Source: Candidatus Tectimicrobiota bacterium | Lineage (GTDB): Bacteria > JACPUC01 | Length of the DNA: 64,000 nucleotides | Direction of reading: 5' to 3' | Assembly (NCBI GenBank): GCA_016192455.1 | Contig: JACPUC010000021.1 | Location: forward strand, 1-64,000 | Shown here: positions 34,944 through 45,549 of the stretch, piece after piece | Numbering within the stretch: the first letter of the stretch is position 1 | How the letters are laid out: each line of letters begins with the position of its first letter | Made by a program: the position numbers and the translations under genes | The notes under the pieces: generated by a model | Database searches by the model: none | Seen by the model: the letters and a program-made list of their open reading frames with translations, nothing else | Told to the model about the DNA's origin: nothing

Positions 34944-35527
34944 CCCGCCAATCGGGCGTGGCGGAGGAGAGATCGCCTTCGTTCTCGCCTGCATGCCGCC
35001 CGGGGCCGAGGGAATCCCCCTCGGACCCCGATCTTCCGAAAGGGAAGGGGTTGAGACCTGCCCGGCGCTGGGCAAACCGGTGCCGCGGGGCCGGCGGCCC
35101 CGCCTGCGAAGCCCTCGACAGAGGTCGCGGTGTTCCAGACCCAGGCGGTCGCCGGGGGCAGCTCTTCAAAGAACATTTTTGACCTCGTGGGCTTGACGGT
35201 TGCTTTCACGAAACCAATAATAACGACCATTGTGCATTAGAGAAGGGAATAGCTTAAGACAGGCGTTGCGGCGGGAGATGGGATTTCCAGCGCAGGGGTT
35301 TGTGAAGGTTTTTATGTTTCTTTTTGGAGTTAGAATTTCAAAGGTTTCGTCCTTCTGAAACCGACAGAAGTCGCGCCGCATGAGGCAGATGCTGGGCGGC
35401 AAGAGAGGCGTGGAGGCTCGTGCCAGAGGGGAGTTCTGCTCCGCACCCGTTCGAGGATGATGGCATGAGATGAGGAGCGTAGGTTGGGCGTGGCGCTCGG
35501 CGTGACCCACTAACTCTGGGGCCGACT
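34944..35527. other. Intergenic region and long leader of the respiratory operon
   Basis: The first half is GC-rich and featureless apart from CCGCCA...TGGCGG just after the ligase gene, with no U-tract. From about 35161 the sequence becomes clearly richer in A+T. It contains the promoter at 35193, a TAGAAT box (35331-35336) with a weak -35 partner, and the hairpin GGTTTC-N8-GAAACC (35343-35362). No coding frame is supported. Confidence 0.5.
35193..35221 (+). promoter_or_regulatory. Promoter of the respiratory-complex operon
   Basis: TTGACG (35193-35198), a 17-base spacer and AATAAT (35216-35221) match five of six consensus bases in each box. Transcription would start near 35228, leaving about 300 nucleotides of leader before the first gene. 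The terminator at 42350-42390 would close the unit. Confidence 0.6.
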
Positions 35528-36073
35528 ATGACGCGGAATGGAATTCTGGCGCTCCTGGTGTTCATTGTCCTCGTTGGTGCGCTGCTCATCGTCTGGAAAA
35601 CCTCCGCCCAACCCAGCATCCAGCAACCGATTGCCTACAACCACAAACGGCACATCAGCGAGGGTCTTGCCTGCAAGGACTGCCACAAGAGCGCCCTGAC
35701 GGGCGAAGCCGCCGGTCGGCCGAGCGAGCAGACGTGTCGCGACTGCCACGATCCCGGCGAGCTTGAGGAGGGTACGGAGGGGAAGAATCCTGAGATCGTC
35801 AAGCTCCTCACCTACCTCAAGGAGAAGGCGCAGATTCCCTGGCGCCGCATCTTCCAGCTTCCAGAGCATGTCTACTTTTCCCATGTTCGGCATGCGACAG
35901 TCGCCAAGGTGGCGTGTGAAACCTGCCATGGTCCGATGGCGGAAGCCGTGCGACCGCCGAGCGCCCCCTTGGTCTCCATCACGATGGACTTCTGCATCAA
36001 CTGCCACGTGCAGCAGCGGAGTGCGCGCGCGGGCGCAGCGACAACCCGCGACTGTAATGCCTGCCATAAATAG
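35528..36073 (+). CDS. Pentahaem cytochrome c, membrane-anchored (QrcA/ActA-like)
   Basis: A 181-residue multihaem cytochrome. An N-terminal helix (GILALLVFIVLVGALLIVW, 5-23) anchors or exports it. Five CxxCH motifs follow at 49-53, 70-74, 130-134, 156-160 and 176-180. Extra histidines in FSHVRH and YNHKRH are probable distal ligands, the class III/c7 arrangement. It heads a six-gene unit with molybdopterin, FeS and NrfD subunits, exactly as QrcA (six haems) and ActA (five haems) do in quinone-linked complexes. It probably wires the complex to soluble cytochromes. The ATG has GGGG six bases upstream. Confidence 0.9.
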   Translation: MTRNGILALLVFIVLVGALLIVWKTSAQPSIQQPIAYNHKRHISEGLACKDCHKSALTGEAAGRPSEQTCRDCHDPGELEEGTEGKNPEIVKLLTYLKEKAQIPWRRIFQLPEHVYFSHVRHATVAKVACETCHGPMAEAVRPPSAPLVSITMDFCINCHVQQRSARAGAATTRDCNACHK

Positions 36074-36142
36074 AGGCAGCCGAGCGGGCGCGGCACGGCT
36101 CCGGGGGAACCGCTGCGGGCGCTGCCCAGAGAAGGATGCGGC

Positions 36143-38626
36143 ATGAGGTACACGCGGCGCCATTTTCTCCAGACCCTGGGAGGCGCGGGCGTCGGGCTGG
36201 CGCTGAGCAGCTTCGGCTTCGCCGCGAGCGAGAAGCCGGAGGATCTTCACGATACGTGGCCCGATCGCCAGGAGACCTGGAGCATCTCCATCTGCCAGCA
36301 GTGCCCCGGCGGCTGCGGTATCCGGGTGCGGCAGGTGGGCGGGCGGCCGGTCAAGATCGAGGGCAACCCCGACCACCCGGTGAACCAGGGACGCCTCTGC
36401 CCCAAAGGGCAGAGCGCCCTGCACGCGCTCTATGATCCCGACCGCATCCGCACGCCGTTGCTGCGCACCGGCAAGCGCGGCGCCGGCGCCTGGAAGCCTC
36501 TCGGCTGGGACGAAGCGCTGGGGATGCTGCGGCAACGCCTAGCCGGGCTGCAGGCGCAGGGCGAGCCCCACCGCCTGGCGATCCTCGGCGGCCAGTACCG
36601 CGGCTTCATGGATCCCCTCTGGCGCCGCTTTGCCCATGCCTACGGAACGCCGAACTACATCCGCCTCAACTGCTTGCAAACGGATCAGGCGATGCTCGCG
36701 CACGTCCTCTCCCAGGGAGCCCAGGCGCCGCTCAGCTTCGATCTGCGCCATGCGCGCCTCATCCTCTCCTTCGGCTGCAACCTTCTGGAGACCTGGCAGT
36801 CCCCCGTGCACGTCGCCCGCGCCTATGCCGACACGGTGAGCGCCGCGGGCGGGCGCACCGCCAGATTGGTGCAGGTGGACCCCCGTTTCTCCCCCACCGC
36901 CGCCAAGGCGGACCAATGGGTTCCCATCGAACCGGGCAGGGACGGCGCCCTGGCGCTGGGGCTCGCCTACGTGCTGATTCGCGAGAACCTCTATGACGAC
37001 CAGTTCGTGCGCAACTTCACCTTCGGCTTCCATGATTGGGTCGATGACCACGGGGTGCGCCAGCGCGGTTACCGCAGCGTCGTCCTCGACACCTACGAGC
37101 CGAGCCACGTCGCCGAGATCACCGGGGTGCCGGTGGAGACCATCATCCAGTTGGCGCGCGAGTTCGGCGCCCGGAAGCCGGCCCTGGCCATCGGCAGCCG
37201 CGGCGTCTCCCAATACTCCAATGACAACCTGAGTCGTCTCGCGGTGCACAGCCTGAACGCGCTCGTCGGCAACATCGGCCAGAAGGGAGGGGTGCTGGGA
37301 CAGAACGTCCTCCCCTTCACTCCCTGGCCCTCCTTCGAGCTGGATGGGGCGGCGCGGCGCGGCGTCGCCATGCCACGCGTCGACGGCGCCGGTCAGGGCC
37401 GCTACCTCCTCAGCACCGATGCCTTCCAGGCGCTGCCGCAAAACCTCAAAGCGGACAAGCCCTACTCCATCGATACCCTGCTCATCTACGGCACGAACCC
37501 ACTCCTTTCCCATCCAAGCGGCGCCGGCTTCAGCGGCGTCCTCGATCATGTTGGCTTCGTGGTGAGCTTCTCGCCTTACTACGACGAGACGGCCATGATG
37601 GCCGACCTCGTGCTTCCCGACCACACGCCCCTCGAACGCTGGTTGGACGACCCCCTCACCCAGTTGGCCGGTTTCTCCGCCTTCAGCATCGCTCCGCCGG
37701 TGGTCTCCCCCCTCTTCGAGACGAGATCGACGGGTGACGTCGTGCTCAGGTTGGCCGCCATGCTGGGCGGCGTTCCAGCGCTCGCCCTCCCCTGGAAGAG
37801 CTACGAGGACCTCCTCCGCTTCAGCGCCCGCGGCCTCTTCGAGGCAGGGTTCGGCCATGTCATCTCGATTCCGGAACGCGAGGGATTCCGGCAGCTCCTA
37901 CGCCAGCGCGGGTACTGGAGGAGGGAGCTTGCGACCTTCGACGACTTCTGGAAGGCCCTGGTGAGCCGCGGCGCCTGGTGGGATGCCGAGGAGAACTACG
38001 GGGCGCTGGCGATGGTCCTGCACACCCCGTCGCGCCGCTACGAGTTCTACTCGCAGACCCTCCGCCGTCAGGTGGAGGAGGAAGCGCGCAAGCTTGCCGA
38101 GCGCGAGAAGGGGCTTGATGTCGGGGCTGCCGTGAAGCGCCTTGCCGGCGAGCTGCACCTCGGCCAGAACGAACAACTCTTCTACCTGCCGCACTATGAA
38201 GAGCCGAGCTTTCGTGGGGAGGATCGCAGTTACCCCCTGCACTTCGGGTCCTACAAACTCATGAGCCGCTATGGCGGCCGTACCGGCAATCAGCCATGGC
38301 TGCAGGAACACCCCGCGGCGTTCATCGAGAGTGACTGGGACCCCTGGGTCGAGATCAACCCGGTCACGGCGCGCCGACTCAACATCCAAGACGGCGAGTG
38401 GGTGTGGGTCGAATCAAGCAAGGGGCGGCTGCGGGCCAAGGCCCGCCTCTATCCGGGAACGCGGCCCAACATGGTGAATATGGCCACGGGGGCCGGCCAT
38501 ACCGCGATGGGCCGCTGGGCCCAGGGGGTCGGCGCCAACCCGAATGAGGTCATCCTGCCGGGAAGCGATGTGGTGCGCGGCTTTGGAACGCTGGGAGAGA
38601 CCCGGGTGCGGATCGTGAAACTCTAG
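36143..38626 (+). CDS. Molybdopterin oxidoreductase-family catalytic-type subunit (QrcB/ActB-like)
   Basis: An 827-residue periplasmic subunit with a twin-arginine signal (YTRRHFLQ, then a short hydrophobic stretch). The [4Fe-4S] site is Cys51-x2-Cys54-x3-Cys58-x27-Cys86. MopB-fold segments follow: ARLILSFGCNLLE, YGTNPLLSHP and the C-terminal NPVTARRLNIQDGEWVWVES. In active PsrA/PhsA-type enzymes a Cys about eight residues after GTPN coordinates Mo. Here the aligned segment is GTPNYIRLNCLQTD, with a Cys (177) two positions early and Gln179 at the usual place. Mo ligation is therefore doubtful, as reported for QrcB. It is separated from the FeS subunit gene, unlike fused ActB. Confidence 0.9.
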   Translation: MRYTRRHFLQTLGGAGVGLALSSFGFAASEKPEDLHDTWPDRQETWSISICQQCPGGCGIRVRQVGGRPVKIEGNPDHPVNQGRLCPKGQSALHALYDPDRIRTPLLRTGKRGAGAWKPLGWDEALGMLRQRLAGLQAQGEPHRLAILGGQYRGFMDPLWRRFAHAYGTPNYIRLNCLQTDQAMLAHVLSQGAQAPLSFDLRHARLILSFGCNLLETWQSPVHVARAYADTVSAAGGRTARLVQVDPRFSPTAAKADQWVPIEPGRDGALALGLAYVLIRENLYDDQFVRNFTFGFHDWVDDHGVRQRGYRSVVLDTYEPSHVAEITGVPVETIIQLAREFGARKPALAIGSRGVSQYSNDNLSRLAVHSLNALVGNIGQKGGVLGQNVLPFTPWPSFELDGAARRGVAMPRVDGAGQGRYLLSTDAFQALPQNLKADKPYSIDTLLIYGTNPLLSHPSGAGFSGVLDHVGFVVSFSPYYDETAMMADLVLPDHTPLERWLDDPLTQLAGFSAFSIAPPVVSPLFETRSTGDVVLRLAAMLGGVPALALPWKSYEDLLRFSARGLFEAGFGHVISIPEREGFRQLLRQRGYWRRELATFDDFWKALVSRGAWWDAEENYGALAMVLHTPSRRYEFYSQTLRRQVEEEARKLAEREKGLDVGAAVKRLAGELHLGQNEQLFYLPHYEEPSFRGEDRSYPLHFGSYKLMSRYGGRTGNQPWLQEHPAAFIESDWDPWVEINPVTARRLNIQDGEWVWVESSKGRLRAKARLYPGTRPNMVNMATGAGHTAMGRWAQGVGANPNEVILPGSDVVRGFGTLGETRVRIVKL

Positions 38627-38645
38627 CCTCGTGGAAGGGGACCAC

Positions 38646-39341
38646 GTGCCACGCTGGGCGATGGTGATTGATATCGATAAGTGCACCGGCTGCCAGGCCT
38701 GCGTGCTTGCCTGTAAAGCGGAGAACAACATCCCCGCCGTCAGCCGCGAGGAGAGCGCGCGCGGCCGCAGCATCAGTTGGATGCGCATCCTCCACGAAGT
38801 CGAGGGGGAGTACCCCGACGTGCGCCTGCGGTTCATCCCGCGCCCCTGCATGCACTGCGACAATCCGCCCTGCACGAAGGTCTGCCCCGTCATGGCCACC
38901 TACAAGGACCGCGACGGCATCGTGGCGCAAATCTACCCGCGCTGCATCGGCTGCCGCTTCTGCATGGCCGCCTGCCCCTACACCGTGAAGTACTTCAACT
39001 GGCACACCTACGAGATGCCGAACCTGCAGCAGCGCATGCACAATCCCGACGTCTCGGTGCGCACGAAAGGAGTGGTCGAGAAGTGCACCTTCTGCCACCA
39101 CCGCCTGCAACGCGCCCACGACGAGGCGCGCCGCCAGGGCCGACCCCTGGAGGCTGGCAGCTACACGACTGCCTGTTCACAGACGTGCCCGACGGGAGCC
39201 ATACGTTTCGGCGACCTCGATGATCGCGACAGCGAGGTGGCCCGCCTGGCGAAGAGCCCGCGGGCGTTCCGCCTGCTTGCAGAACTTGGCACGCAGCCGA
39301 AGGTCATCTACCTGACAGAACGGGACCGCCATGCGACCTGA
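38646..39341 (+). CDS. Four-cluster 4Fe-4S ferredoxin-type subunit (QrcC/PsrB/DmsB-like)
   Basis: A 231-residue electron-transfer subunit. GTG 38646 is preferred because AAGGGG precedes it by five bases and the product then starts (V)PRWAMVID, as homologues do. Sixteen cysteines form four cluster sites: CTGCQACVLAC at the start, CMHCDNPPCTKVCP, CIGCRFCMAACP and CTFC paired with CSQTCPTGA. It should pass electrons between the membrane subunit and the molybdopterin-like and multihaem subunits. The stop lies 10 bp inside the NrfD gene, and the preceding gene ends 19 bp upstream, so translation is tightly coupled. Confidence 0.93.
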   Translation: MPRWAMVIDIDKCTGCQACVLACKAENNIPAVSREESARGRSISWMRILHEVEGEYPDVRLRFIPRPCMHCDNPPCTKVCPVMATYKDRDGIVAQIYPRCIGCRFCMAACPYTVKYFNWHTYEMPNLQQRMHNPDVSVRTKGVVEKCTFCHHRLQRAHDEARRQGRPLEAGSYTTACSQTCPTGAIRFGDLDDRDSEVARLAKSPRAFRLLAELGTQPKVIYLTERDRHAT

Positions 39342-40677
39342 TGCACCCACCCTGGAGCTCGACCTCGCGCTCATCAACCCGATTGTGAAGACGAGCCGCA
39401 CCTTCTTCATCGCCGCGGCGTTCCTGCTCCTGGTGATTCTCTGGGCCAACTTGGCCTACCGCTCGCAGCTCGTGGAAGGGCTCGGCGTCACCGGCCTTAA
39501 CCAGCCGGTAAGCTGGGGCTTCTACATCACCAACTTCGTCTTTTTCATCGGCATCAGCCACGCCGGCACGCTCATCTCGGCTATCCTGCGCATCGCCCAG
39601 GCCGAGTGGCGCCGCCCCATCACGCGCATGGCCGAGGTCATCACCGTCGTCGTCCTCTTCCTGGGCGCCGTGAACATCATCTTTGACCTGGGCCGCCCCG
39701 ATCGCGCCCTCAATGTCATCTACTGGGGGCGCTACCAATCGCCCCTCCTGTGGGACGTTACGAGCATCACCACCTACCTGACAGCAAGTACCATCTACCT
39801 CTACCTTCCTCTCATCCCCGATGTCGCCATCCTGCGCGACCGGGTCAGCCGCTTCAACTGGCTCTACCGCATCCTCGCCCTGGGCTGGCGGGGCACCGAG
39901 CGCCAGGAGAAAGTGCTGCAGCGCGCCATCGCCATCATGGCCATCGTCGTCATCCCGGTCGCCGTGTCGGTGCACAGCGTCGTCTCCTTCGTCTTCTCCA
40001 TGACCCTGCAACCGATGTGGCACAGCACCATCTTCGGGCCGTACTTCGTGGTGGGAGCGATCTTCTCCGGCATCGCCGCGCTCATCATCGCCATGGTCGT
40101 GGTCCGCAAGGTCTACCACCTCGAAGCCTACATGAAGCCGATCCACTTCAACTACCTGAGCCTCCTCCTGCTCATCATGTCGCTGCTGTGGTTCTACTTC
40201 ACCTTCGCGGAGTACCTCACCGGCTACTACGGCGGGGAGCCGGAGGAGATGAAGGTCTTCTGGGCCAAGCTGACGGGGGATTTCGCGCCCTTCTTCTGGA
40301 GCATGGTGCTCTGTAACTTCTTCATTCCGGTCCTCATCCTGAGCTTCCGGCGCACGCGCACTATCCTCGGCGCCTTGCTCGCCTCGTCCACCGTGGTCAT
40401 CGGCATGTGGATCGAGCGCTTCATCATCATCGTGCCGACGCTGTCGCACCCGCGCCTGCCACACGCCGCGGCCATCTACCTGCCCAGCCTCGTCGAGTGG
40501 GCGATGTTCGCCGGCAGCATTGCCACCTTCATCCTGCTCTACATGGTCTTCACGAAGCTCTTCCCGATCATCTCGCTGTGGGAAATCCAGGAAGGTCGCG
40601 AGGTCGGCTTGCGGCACATGGAGGAACGGGTGCGCGCCTATCTCCCCTCGACACCCACGCCAAGCAGCCAGGTTTGA
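39331..40677 (+). CDS. NrfD/PsrC-family quinone-interacting membrane subunit
   Basis: A 448-residue polytopic protein of about ten helices, the length of PsrC, QrcD and ActC. Visible landmarks are GFYITNFVFFIGISHAGTLISAILR, which holds the conserved helix-2 His, IIFDLGRPDR, VHSVVSFVFS, and FWSMVLCNFFIPVLIL. NrfD subunits bind quinone at the periplasmic face and carry no metal themselves. The gene overlaps the FeS subunit by 11 bp, and the next small membrane gene begins 49 bp later. This is the membrane core of the complex. Confidence 0.92.
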   Translation: MRPDAPTLELDLALINPIVKTSRTFFIAAAFLLLVILWANLAYRSQLVEGLGVTGLNQPVSWGFYITNFVFFIGISHAGTLISAILRIAQAEWRRPITRMAEVITVVVLFLGAVNIIFDLGRPDRALNVIYWGRYQSPLLWDVTSITTYLTASTIYLYLPLIPDVAILRDRVSRFNWLYRILALGWRGTERQEKVLQRAIAIMAIVVIPVAVSVHSVVSFVFSMTLQPMWHSTIFGPYFVVGAIFSGIAALIIAMVVVRKVYHLEAYMKPIHFNYLSLLLLIMSLLWFYFTFAEYLTGYYGGEPEEMKVFWAKLTGDFAPFFWSMVLCNFFIPVLILSFRRTRTILGALLASSTVVIGMWIERFIIIVPTLSHPRLPHAAAIYLPSLVEWAMFAGSIATFILLYMVFTKLFPIISLWEIQEGREVGLRHMEERVRAYLPSTPTPSSQV

Positions 40678-40726
40678 GACCTGGCCGACGTTCCGCCGCA
40701 GCCCGGGTGCTGCGGGAGGGTCAAGG

Positions 40727-40975
40727 ATGCAACGCGATCCACGCTGGGTGTTGTACGTGCAGAACGCGGGGCTCTTCCTCTTCACCGTCTTCGTGTTCGG
40801 CGTCATCGGCTGGATCATTCGCCTCATCCGGCTCTCCTGGACGCTCGATGACAGTCCTTCCGGGTCGATCGCCATCTCGCTCATCGCCATCCCGGTTTTC
40901 CTCTTGCTCCTGGGCGTCGTCAACTACGTCTTCTGGGGCATCCGTGGCGCCGTCGAGAAGGAGGATTCGCAATGA
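40727..40975 (+). CDS. Small two-helix membrane subunit of the respiratory unit
   Basis: An 82-residue protein with two clear membrane helices (LYVQNAGLFLFTVFVFGVIGWII and AISLIAIPVFLLLLGVVNYVFWGI, in outline), joined by a short acidic hairpin (LSWTLDDSPSG). GGGAGG lies upstream of the ATG, and the stop overlaps the next start as ATGA, so it is surely translated with the operon. I do not recognise the family. Size and topology recall accessory subunits such as ActF/ActD-type or cytochrome-oxidase small subunits. It may stabilise the NrfD subunit or anchor the tetrahaem cytochrome. Confidence 0.85.
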   Translation: MQRDPRWVLYVQNAGLFLFTVFVFGVIGWIIRLIRLSWTLDDSPSGSIAISLIAIPVFLLLLGVVNYVFWGIRGAVEKEDSQ

Positions 40976-42216
40976 GGCAGCGCCTCGCCTCGCGCACCGT
41001 GATGGCCGTGGTCGTCGGCTGCGTCGTGTTCTTCGGCGTGGCGTTTCGCGCCGCGGCGTCTGACGAGAGGCTGTTACCCGATAACCCCCTGGCCGGGCAA
41101 GAGCTCTTCCTCTCGAAAGGTTGCGTCTCGTGCCATGCCGTCCTCGGCCATGGCGGCACCGCCGGGCCTGATTTCGGCAAGATCCAGCTCAGCAAGAGCA
41201 TTCTCGGCATCGCCGCCCTGATGTGGAACCACTCTCCCCGCATGACGGAGGAGTTCCTCAGACTGCAGCGCGCACGCCCTGAATTCAGCGCCGAGGAGAT
41301 GAGCAACCTGATCGGCTTCCTCTACCTCCTGAACTACTTCGATCCGCTGGGCGATCCCAAGACGGGGGCCGAGGTGTTCAAGTCGCACCTCTGCGAAAAC
41401 TGCCATGCCGTGGGAGGTGCGGGGGGAAAGGTGGCGCCGCCGCTCGATCGCCTGAAGAACTACTACACGCCGATCTACCTCGCCACCTCCATGTGGAACC
41501 ACGGCGCCAAGATGACCGAGTCGATGAAGCAGCGCAACGTGCCCCTGCCTCGCTTCCACGGCGCCGACGTGGCCGACCTGCTGGCGTTCATCCGCCAGAT
41601 GGCGCGCACCGACGTGGTGGAGCGCCACTACCTCGAACCGGGCAGCCCAGCGCGCGGCGCGCTGATTGTCCATACCAAGGGGTGCAGCCAGTGCCACGGC
41701 ATCCACAAGAGCAATGGCGGAACCGAAGCGGATGCCCGCCCGCCCTTCGCTACGCTTTTCCCGAACATGGAAGGACCGAACCTGGCGAAGTTGGGGTTGC
41801 GCACCAACTTCTCGCACATCGCCGGCATGCTCTGGACCCATGGCGATGGGGTGTGGGAAATCATGCAGCGAAACGGCGTCGAGGTCCCCACCTTCAGCCC
41901 GCAGGAGATGGCCGACCTGAGCATCTACCTCTACTTCCTCGGCTACGCGGACAGCCCGGGAAATGTTCAGGGAGGGCGCTCCGTGTTCGTGGAGAAAGGA
42001 TGCGTTCTCTGTCACAGCCCCCACGATGATGCCAAGAAGATCGGACCTGGGCTCGCAAAGATCGCCAAGAACGCCACTCCCTTCGAGATCGTGGCTGCCA
42101 TGTGGAACCATCTGCCGACCATGGAGAAACGGCTCAATGAACTGAAGTTCCCCTGGCCACGGTTCACGACGGCCGAGATGGGCGATCTCATCACCTACTT
42201 GCGGTCGATGGAGTGA
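40972..42216 (+). CDS. Tetrahaem cytochrome c made of four repeated domains
   Basis: A 414-residue exported protein (signal VMAVVVGCVVFFGVAFRAAAS). It consists of four class-I-like cytochrome domains of about 90-105 residues, each with one CxxCH: 51-55, 141-145, 238-242 and 344-348. Each domain repeats the same C-terminal pattern: M/L-W-[NT]-H about 30-50 residues after the haem (85-87, 175-177, 288-290, 378-380), a Met-rich helix, then PxF and a DL-x3-IYLY-like helix. The protein is therefore an internal fourfold duplication. It ends the operon, just before the terminator, and is probably the periplasmic electron wire or donor/acceptor of the Qrc/ACIII-like complex. Confidence 0.92.
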   Translation: MRQRLASRTVMAVVVGCVVFFGVAFRAAASDERLLPDNPLAGQELFLSKGCVSCHAVLGHGGTAGPDFGKIQLSKSILGIAALMWNHSPRMTEEFLRLQRARPEFSAEEMSNLIGFLYLLNYFDPLGDPKTGAEVFKSHLCENCHAVGGAGGKVAPPLDRLKNYYTPIYLATSMWNHGAKMTESMKQRNVPLPRFHGADVADLLAFIRQMARTDVVERHYLEPGSPARGALIVHTKGCSQCHGIHKSNGGTEADARPPFATLFPNMEGPNLAKLGLRTNFSHIAGMLWTHGDGVWEIMQRNGVEVPTFSPQEMADLSIYLYFLGYADSPGNVQGGRSVFVEKGCVLCHSPHDDAKKIGPGLAKIAKNATPFEIVAAMWNHLPTMEKRLNELKFPWPRFTTAEMGDLITYLRSME

Positions 42217-42349
42217 CGCGGCCGGCGGGGCGCCGGCAAGAACGGCCGGGGTTGTGGCGCACCAGGCTGAGCGTCGAGCCGAACCGTCGGCGCACAGCAA
42301 AGACGGGGCAAGGAGCGCGGTTCGAGGCCTACCAGCACGCAGCGTCAAG

Positions 42350-42390
42350 AGCCGCATCGCCCTGACGAGACGGGCGGGCGGCTTTTTTTT
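42350..42390 (+). terminator. Intrinsic terminator of the respiratory operon
   Basis: AGCCGC-at-CGCCC, a nine-base loop, then GGGCG-g-GCGGCT pair into an 11-bp GC stem immediately followed by eight T residues (42383-42390). It is the clearest intrinsic terminator in the window. It lies 134 bp after the tetrahaem cytochrome stop and closes the six-gene unit. Confidence 0.88.
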
Positions 42391-43218: not shown

Positions 43219-43488
43219 ATGAACCCAACCCGCCGCGCCGATATCCTGGTTCGCCCGTTGGGTGAGGGGCTGGTGCTCTATGACCCCCTCAGCATGACCA
43301 CCCACACGCTCAATCAAACGGCGGGTTTCATTTGGGCGCAGTGCGACGGCAAAACGTCCACCCCCTCGATAGCGGCGGCGCTCACCCGCACGTTCGACGT
43401 CGACGCCGGAGCGGCCGCCGCGGACGTCGAGGAAGTCATCCGGCAGCTTGCGGAGCTGGGGCTCCTCGTCGTTGAAGGCACAGCGTAA
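43219..43488 (+). CDS. PqqD-family protein (RiPP recognition element fold), orphan
   Basis: An 89-residue PqqD-like protein: VRPLGEGLVLYDPLSMTTHTLNQTAGFIWAQCDG is split over the beta strands, followed by the helical SIAAALTRTFDVD and VIRQLAELGLLV. PqqD proteins bind leader peptides and hand them to a radical-SAM or other modifying enzyme. No radical-SAM peptide maturase, PqqA or other recognised precursor is nearby, and lipoyl synthase at 51630 is unrelated. Only a weak GAGAAG precedes the ATG. It could instead be one of the many free-standing PqqD-like proteins of unknown role. It faces OsmC 101 bp away. Confidence 0.85.
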   Translation: MNPTRRADILVRPLGEGLVLYDPLSMTTHTLNQTAGFIWAQCDGKTSTPSIAAALTRTFDVDAGAAAADVEEVIRQLAELGLLVVEGTA

Positions 43489-44154: not shown

Positions 44155-45549
44155 TCAGGACCCGACGCGCAGGCCGAGCCGTTTCAGCTTGCGGTGCAGG
44201 CCGGCCCGGTCGAGGCCCAGGAAACGAGCCGCTTCGGAGAGGTTGCCGCGCGTTGAGGCCAGCACAAGGCTCAACGCCTCCCGTTCAGCCCGCGCCACCG
44301 TCTCCTTCAGGATCGTAGGCGACAACGGCGCCGCCTCGGAGTGTCCCGTGTCGGGGGGACCAGCCCCCAGGGCCTGCAGCGCCTGCCGGTCCAGCACAGC
44401 CCGGTCGCTCTCGATGACGAAGCGCTGCATGAGGTCCTCGATCTCCCGCACGTGGCTCGTGTACTCCCGGTACTGGAGGCGGCGCATGGCGCTCGCATGC
44501 GGCCGCACGGGCCGCCCCGCCAGGGCGCCATAGCGGGCGCAGAAGTGCTCGACGAGCTGCGGGATGTCCTGGCGCCGGCGTTGCAGCGGGGGCATGGCGA
44601 GGTGCACCAAGCTGACGCGCCGCAGCAAGTCGGGGTCTACTTCGGGCAGCCCGGCGATGGCCTCCGGGGGCTTGCGGGATAACGCGAGGAGGCGCCAGGC
44701 CGGAGCGCCGCCAGGGTGCGCCTCGTCGAGGTGGCGCACGAGGCAGCGCTGCAAGACCGCCGGCATCCCTTCGAAGCTCTTCAAGATGAGGGTGCCGGCC
44801 GGCCCCGTCGCCGCCTCGAGGAGGTGGAGGAGATCCTCGGTCGCCGCCGCATCCAGCCGCTCGACATGCACCACGCGGCAGCATGAGGCCGGCAGGCCGC
44901 TGGCTCGATGGATCACCATCGCCAAAAGTGTCTTCCCCGACCCGGCCGGTCCGCTGATGAAGGCGGGAAGGCGCGTGCGCGCCAGGCGCGCGGCCTTCTC
45001 CCTGAGGGCGCGCATCTCGGCGCTCGAGCCGATGAGCGCGGCGTCAAACTCCCAGCTCAGCGCCGGCCCGGCAGGCTCCTCGGTCGGCGCCGCGCCGTCC
45101 GCGCCGGCGCCTGCGCCGGCGGCCGCCCTCCCGCCTCTCGGCGGTTCTCCCAGCTCAACCTTTCCGAAGAGGTGAGAGAACGCCTGGAAGCACGTTGCCA
45201 GGCTCACGTGCACGAGCTGCCCGTCACTCGCCTCGCGGAAGATGGGAAACTCCGGCGGCGGATCGAGGCTCAGCAGCTCCATGATCGGCATCTGGGCAGC
45301 GAGCACCGAGGCGGGTTCGAGATGCTTCATCGTCGGGCGAAGGTAGTCTTGCCGATCGGTGGCGCAGAGTTGCAGGAACGTCCGGCGCGTCAGCCGCCAC
45401 ACCTGGCCGTCGCGCTGCAGCCGCACCGGCAGCGCCTGCAGCGCCTCGTGGTTCTCGAACAGTCGCAGCGCCGTCTGGCGCGGCACCTGGGCGGTCAGGA
45501 TCGGCAATTGAATGCCCGCAAGATCACGTAGTTTTGCCTGTGGGTCCAT
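44155..45549 (-). CDS. NtrC-like AAA+/Fis regulator lacking sigma54-activation features
   Basis: A 464-residue protein with the outline of an enhancer-binding regulator. The N-terminal region (1-130) includes a CBS-like stretch, followed by an Ala/Gly-rich linker. The AAA+ domain has Walker A GPAGSGKT (200-207), the sensor/lid block MPPLQRRRQDIPQLVEHF, and a Fis HTH at the end (GNLSEAARFLGLDRAGLHRKLKRLGL in outline, about 436-461). The GAFTGA loop that touches sigma54 is missing, and the Walker B site reads GTLILKSFEG (252-261), where GTLFLDE is expected. ATP hydrolysis and sigma54 activation are thus unlikely. It may act as a plain DNA-binding regulator of the downstream OsmC gene. Confidence 0.85.
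   Translation of the reverse strand: MDPQAKLRDLAGIQLPILTAQVPRQTALRLFENHEALQALPVRLQRDGQVWRLTRRTFLQLCATDRQDYLRPTMKHLEPASVLAAQMPIMELLSLDPPPEFPIFREASDGQLVHVSLATCFQAFSHLFGKVELGEPPRGGRAAAGAGAGADGAAPTEEPAGPALSWEFDAALIGSSAEMRALREKAARLARTRLPAFISGPAGSGKTLLAMVIHRASGLPASCCRVVHVERLDAAATEDLLHLLEAATGPAGTLILKSFEGMPAVLQRCLVRHLDEAHPGGAPAWRLLALSRKPPEAIAGLPEVDPDLLRRVSLVHLAMPPLQRRRQDIPQLVEHFCARYGALAGRPVRPHASAMRRLQYREYTSHVREIEDLMQRFVIESDRAVLDRQALQALGAGPPDTGHSEAAPLSPTILKETVARAEREALSLVLASTRGNLSEAARFLGLDRAGLHRKLKRLGLRVGS

Follow-up and report, generated by a model that had tools for sequence, protein, structure and literature searches.

Gene cluster and surroundings

The window analysed here is a stretch of 64,000 nucleotides from a Candidatus Tectimicrobiota genome (GCA_016192455.1, contig JACPUC010000021.1, positions 1 to 64,000). 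Inspection of its open reading frames identified six co-directional, close-set genes on the forward strand (35528-42216), and all six products named in a first-pass annotation of this DNA were recovered. Subunit A (35528..36073) is a pentahaem c7-type cytochrome of the ActA/QrcA-like kind with an N-terminal membrane helix (five CxxCH; Cytochrome_C7, 5.8e-13). After a 69 bp gap follows subunit B1 (36143..38626), a MopB protein with a Tat signal, a [4Fe-4S] Cys tetrad (51/54/58/86), Cys177, Asp246 and Asp267, assigned from Pfam, alignment and AlphaFold modelling. Subunit B2 (38631..39341), separated from it by 4 bp, is an Fe-S protein containing all 16 Cys expected for four [4Fe-4S] clusters. 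Its gene overlaps by 11 bp that of subunit C (39331..40677), an NrfD/ActC-like membrane protein with a putative quinone site (Asp119, Ser137, Asp142) and a putative gate residue, Arg363. A gap of 49 bp precedes a gene for a small protein of 82 aa with two hydrophobic stretches and the motif SxSIxISxVAIPVF...YVFxG (40727..40975), which overlaps by 4 bp the last gene (40972..42216), encoding a tetrahaem cytochrome with a Sec-type signal peptide and four class I mono-haem c domains (four CxxCH; Cytochrom_C, 1.7e-27). The haem counts of five and four given earlier were thus confirmed, as was the four-cluster Fe-S protein. Pfam domains detected in the products were Cytochrome_C7 (A), Molybdop_Fe4S4, Molybdopterin and Molydop_binding (B1), Fer4_11 (B2), NrfD (C) and Cytochrom_C (tetrahaem cytochrome); the small protein had no family.

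An intrinsic-terminator-like hairpin followed by T8 (42347..42390, forward strand; -24.7 kcal/mol, z -3.59) starts about 130 bp 3' of the last operon stop codon. Folding of a longer stretch 3' of the operon returned the same hairpin and nothing further, and the terminator placed here by the first-pass annotation is plausible. The promoter that it placed at 35193..35221 on the forward strand is unsupported, as the two sigma-70-like sites found compare with 1.2 from shuffled sequence. No sigma-54 site was found upstream of the operon, and the window as a whole has 19 matches to the sigma-54 motif against 24.6 expected. Upstream lie genes for an amidohydrolase and an AMP-binding ligase; downstream lie PqqD-like and OsmC genes and then, on the other strand, a sigma-54 activator. 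The PqqD-like gene (43219-43488, forward strand) is an orphan peptide-chaperone gene between operon and regulator. The activator (44155-45549, reverse strand) is without an obvious receiver domain, and NtrC-type regulators also adjoin the cluster in 18 relatives.

Subunit assignment by profile and structure searches

All four NCBIfam Qrc cut-offs were missed (observed/cut-off bits: QrcA 83.8/180, QrcB 298.7/440, QrcC 306.2/400, QrcD 43.6/570); by these scores QrcC is the nearest family model to B2. Models of known molybdoenzymes also scored below cut-off against the window MopB (ArrA 315.9/1600, PhsA 284.9/694, TtrA 83/1750 bits). In searches against the PDB, subunit A matched ActA of alternative complex III (ACIII; 6btm_A, 4.5e-21), the NrfD protein matched ActC of all solved ACIII structures (best about 5e-74; 6btm_C, 5.1e-74), and the best sequence match of MopB was ArrA (2.5e-91). 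The AlphaFold model of the window MopB (pLDDT 81.5, pTM 0.84) likewise had ArrA as its nearest solved fold (Z 41.9, 721 residues, 2.6 A), with ActB further away (Z 27.4).

The tetrahaem cytochrome, whose gene is present as a single copy in the window genome, had generic cytochrome c relatives only. No Pfam or PDB match was found for the small protein, although the motif ISxVAIPVF...YVFxG is kept among its relatives, and its identification as a shortened ActD was rejected (hhalign against ActD, probability 0.7%). No second NrfD gene was found in the operon. Haem count was dropped as a family discriminator, since a true Qrc locus also gives five CxxCH by plain count.

Conservation of the cluster

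A profile scan started from three NrfD sequences retrieved at least 495 relatives. The best 80 of these have 60-70% identity and come from many phyla, among them Rokubacteria, NC10, Myxococcota/Deltaproteobacteria, Ignavibacteria, Acidobacteria, KSB1, Nitrospinota and Planctomycetota, with many others. Gene content was counted in the 47 relatives with enough flanking sequence. Subunit A, MopB, the Fe-S protein and NrfD were each present at 47/47 loci, the tetrahaem cytochrome at 44/47 and the small protein at 35/47 (missing from 12); all six genes occurred together at 33/47, and 22/47 loci had two or more tetrahaem genes. The recurrent order is A-MopB-FeS-NrfD-(small)-(tetrahaem), with the small-protein and tetrahaem genes placed in front of A in some Ignavibacteria. 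Because this order recurs across many phyla, the cluster is far beyond chance. The last two genes are conserved with the others, and the set, which had been presented as non-standard, is not private to this genome. From this co-conservation we infer that the six products assemble jointly; the small two-helix protein would be a subunit peculiar to the family. One Rokubacteria genome has two copies of the operon (L033, L036; MGBV01000177.1, MGBV01000178.1), both with Cys177, Asp246 and Asp267.

These loci had been picked by NrfD similarity to the window, which partly builds in the conservation among them, and the NrfD search was therefore repeated in 386 genomes drawn domain-wide, independently of similarity-based choice. 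Sixteen hits scored high (665-899 bits) and an ActC cloud lay at 383 bits or below, with just three hits between them (471, 455 and a partial hit at 418 bits). Eight new high scorers were opened, and all eight had the quinone-site code Asp/Val-or-Ile described below, a split MopB and a pentahaem cytochrome; the tetrahaem cytochrome was present in seven and the small protein in six. All 11 lower-scoring ActC cases opened had His/Asp at the same positions, and in 10 of them ActB was fused and another NrfD was present. In the remaining case (L195) ActB was split and the residues were those of ACIII, so that splitting of ActB does not define the family. The window genome has one family member and no close ActC.

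NrfD phylogeny and residues that define the family

In the NrfD tree the six-gene family together with one further locus (L155) forms a clade (support 99/96) adjoined by ActC plus ActF (100/95). The window NrfD falls within neither the ActC nor the QrcD clade, and QrcD, the NrfD type of genome G056 and that of locus L193 branch outside both the family and ACIII. Three separate split-ActB loci with His/Asp (L154, L156, L195) group with ACIII. The first-pass annotation had read the operon as a mixture of ACIII and Qrc features; its NrfD belongs instead to a sister clade of ACIII.

The quinone site of R. marinus ActC comprises His139, Ser164, Asp169 and Asp253, with Arg395 as the proposed gate (PMC8076601). 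At these five positions all family rows (85/85) show Asp, Ser, Asp, Val/Ile and Arg, and ActC rows have His, Ser, Asp, Asp and Arg in 9/9. The family thus keeps the Ser of the quinone site and the gate Arg, and His/Asp occurs in 0/85 of its rows. The window NrfD has Asp119 in place of His139 and Val221 in place of Asp253. Its Asp142 is equivalent to ActC Asp169, which QrcD lacks; Asp at the His position is also the QrcD state. Locus L193 (G336 contig 88), an FeS-NrfD-MopB cluster with no penta- or tetrahaem gene detected nearby, has an NrfD on a deeper branch than either ACIII or the six-gene family; its quinone-site pair is Asp/Ile, a hint that the state seen in the family is the ancestral one.

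A third separating position lies in B2. All 16 cluster Cys are present in 77/78 family rows, the remaining row having Ser at another position. Cys108 is found in 78/78 family rows, in contrast to Thr in 9/9 ActB rows, as expected for the [3Fe-4S] cluster of ACIII. Family B2 proteins would accordingly carry four [4Fe-4S] clusters instead of the three plus one [3Fe-4S] of ACIII. Asp for His, Val/Ile for Asp253 and Cys for Thr together set the family apart from every ActC and ActB compared, and the domain-wide sample reproduced the first two.

Molybdenum-site residues of MopB

According to published descriptions, QrcB and ActB-B1 lack a cofactor (PMC13059093, PMC6303296). In a MopB tree that contained no TtrA row, the family, ActB and QrcB formed one clade (support 99) adjoining ArrA-like proteins, with the six-gene MopBs paraphyletic to ActB and QrcB at modest inner support (84-89). 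Neither MopB nor NrfD sits inside the Psr, Ttr or Arr families.

Retention of residues typical of Mo enzymes was scored over 44 columns conserved in 17 rows of Mo-enzyme type. Values were 0.95 for the Mo-enzyme rows, 0.93 for the window subclade, 0.84 for the rest of the family, 0.70 for ActB and 0.73 for QrcB. The difference is mostly due to two Asp, Asp246 (VDPR) and Asp267 (PGTD), which we take to contact the guanine dinucleotides of the cofactor. Most family MopBs are without Mo-site residues, like ActB and QrcB; the window subclade retains both Asp and a Cys in the metal loop. Cys177 was found in 16 family rows, with Asp267 in 16/16 of these and in three or four of the roughly 65 family rows lacking Cys177. 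On a tree built without the Mo-site columns, the Cys177 rows fall within one 14-row clade (support 99). Nested in this window clade is a pair of loci (L034 and L186) that has lost Cys177, Asp246 and Asp267, and another member (L024) has lost Cys177 alone. In the pair (L034:170-2602; L186, G137 contig 1) the operon is intact despite the triple loss, making these loci a natural control for the cofactor question.

Cys177 is offset by two residues from the register of the ArrA ligand and so may not be a Mo ligand. The Fe4S4 Cys tetrad was dropped as evidence for Mo, since ActB rows keep it too. On the residues retained, binding of Mo or W by the window MopB is slightly favoured. The wider proposal is more tentative, and we hold it a little below even: that the window subclade would be an ACIII/Qrc-type complex with a working Mo/W-bisPGD site, a living intermediate between Arr-like molybdoenzymes and the cofactor-less ACIII/Qrc scaffolds, combining the chemistry of quinone, cytochrome and molybdenum in one complex. 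The more interesting feature of the operon, which the first-pass annotation overlooked, is that these Mo-site residues seem intact. Genome G056 has several A-MopB-FeS-NrfD units (L021:455-5754, L023:1-5821), two of them in tandem on one contig. Their MopB retains the two Asp and has a Cys close to the register of ArrA, and their NrfD lies outside ACIII and the six-gene family.

Comparison with known systems

The window has all features of the six-gene family: Asp119 with Val or Ile at 221, split B1/B2, a 16-Cys B2, pentahaem A, a tetrahaem cytochrome and the small protein. With ACIII (ActABCDEF; structures from Rhodothermus, Flavobacterium and Roseiflexus) it shares a pentahaem A encoded first, a MopB-like B1, an Fe-S B2 and an NrfD subunit, and the likeness extends to the quinone-site Ser, the Asp169 equivalent and the gate Arg kept throughout the family. 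Unlike ACIII, it has unfused B1 and B2, no ActF, no ActD and a tetrahaem cytochrome for mono-haem ActE; the family differs further in the residues at His139 and Asp253 and in the predicted cluster content of B2, and the window subclade in keeping Mo-site residues. With Qrc (QrcABCD, Desulfovibrio) it shares the unfused A-B-C-D order, a multihaem A, a QrcC-like Fe-S protein and the quinone-site Asp, but it differs in an NrfD outside the QrcD clade, in the Asp169 equivalent and in two extra conserved genes. Among solved structures and among relatives that contain Mo, ArrA and PsrA come nearest to the window MopB, which differs from them in belonging to the ActB/QrcB clade and in having partner subunits of a cytochrome-linked complex.

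A split ActB or a missing ActF has been reported in ACIII before (PMC4643136, PMC12342949). In Candidatus Deferrimicrobium borealis SHF-111 (MBNT15), cluster 4, 'ACIII-like (2)', comprises ActABCD and a four-haem ActE-like protein and is flanked by counter-oriented FeS/NrfD operons; it was published in 2022 from a single genome, and the account gives no phylogeny or residue analysis and defines no family (PMC9386147). Compared by description, this cluster very probably belongs to the six-gene family, because three relatives with exactly its layout (L079, L080, L104) do. If it matches L080, its MopB would fall in the part of the family without Mo-site residues. Another published six-gene cluster (PMC10732223) is not of the same family, as it has ActD and a second quinone-binding subunit. 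A literature search of limited scope found no family definition and no mention of the Mo-site residues. The six-gene family is thus a real, widespread and hardly described sister family of ACIII, with the window in a possibly Mo-bearing branch.

In ACIII and Qrc the large molybdoenzyme-like subunit binds no molybdenum, and its purpose is an open question. The contrast between a branch that apparently keeps the Mo-site residues and the rest of the family, which loses them and keeps the operon, makes it possible to study the course and timing of active-site loss, and also what the MopB scaffold does. The residue code Asp/Val-Ile/Cys versus His/Asp/Thr can serve for annotation in uncultured phyla, where hundreds of such clusters occur and some have been labelled ACIII.

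Proposed function and alternative readings

Taken on sequence evidence, the operon very likely encodes a complex of the quinone:cytochrome c oxidoreductase type. The fuller description is likely as well, if held a little less firmly: a membrane complex facing the periplasm, placed within the ACIII/Qrc superfamily in its own clade as sister to ACIII, with the electron path proposed below and a probable Mo/W site in the window subclade. The first-pass proposal, a Qrc/ACIII-group complex acting as a variant quinone:cytochrome oxidoreductase, has good support, given the position of NrfD and MopB outside the known reductase families and the conservation of the last two genes.

Quinol would be oxidised at a P-side site in NrfD formed by Asp119, Ser137 and Asp142, and electrons would pass through the four predicted [4Fe-4S] clusters of B2 to pentahaem A and on to the tetrahaem cytochrome, which would feed periplasmic acceptors. 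Half-channels in NrfD, with Arg363, may conserve energy; energy conservation by Qrc has been shown (PMC6303296). The small two-helix protein would stand where ACIII has ActD. B1 of the window subclade probably still binds Mo/W-bisPGD plus a [4Fe-4S] cluster, and the molybdenum site could be a second redox exit or entry. Because of the kinship of NrfD with ActC we tentatively favour the quinol-oxidising direction, but the quinone-site Asp is the QrcD state.

The reverse, Qrc-like direction, in which quinone would be reduced by periplasmic cytochromes such as the tetrahaem protein and protons would be taken up from the cytoplasm, is the most credible of three alternatives, and we still regard it as unlikely. 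Asp119 in place of the ActC His and the nearness of B2 to QrcC speak for it, and ACIII clusters of iron oxidisers have been proposed to reduce quinone (PMC4643136). Against this, the NrfD protein is sister to ActC and not to QrcD, and it has Asp142, whose equivalent is absent from QrcD; the multihaem or porin-cytochrome neighbours seen in some relatives fit either direction. A complex that is simply ACIII minus ActD, ActF and the ActB fusion seems the least probable. Such a reading could appeal to the published split-ActB and ActF-less ACIII (PMC12342949, PMC4643136) and to the member named ACIII-like (PMC9386147). However, separate split-ActB loci with His/Asp group with ACIII, and the family forms a clade by itself and has a small protein of its own, which is not related to ActD.

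A dedicated Arr/Psr-like molybdoenzyme, acting as reductase or dehydrogenase with its chemistry at MopB and the cytochromes as accessory carriers, is improbable too, falling between those two. The window MopB does retain Mo-site residues, and ArrA is its best match in both sequence and structure. Yet every family model scored far below its cut-off (ArrA, 316 against 1600 bits), in the tree MopB falls with ActB and QrcB and not in the ArrA clade, the same operon persists where the Mo site is lost, and ArrABC as described is without penta- and tetrahaem subunits.

For the favoured quinol:cytochrome oxidoreductase, the genes found near the clusters of relatives, namely multihaem cytochromes (37 loci), cytochrome b (20), NtrC (18), Rieske proteins (16) and histidine kinases (16), point to electron exchange in the periplasm or outside the cell, not to one fixed partner oxidase. 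Two relatives in the window subclade have an MtrB/PioB porin nearby; a search of the window genome for this outer-membrane porin gave no match. Two genes for haem-copper oxidases and five for cytochrome b were counted in that genome, so electrons can pass from quinol to cytochrome c by other routes than this operon. Among the genomes compared, its lineage stands without a relative below the rank of domain. At least 22 MopB-type matches were counted in its 4.46 Mb, which points to a respiratory generalist.
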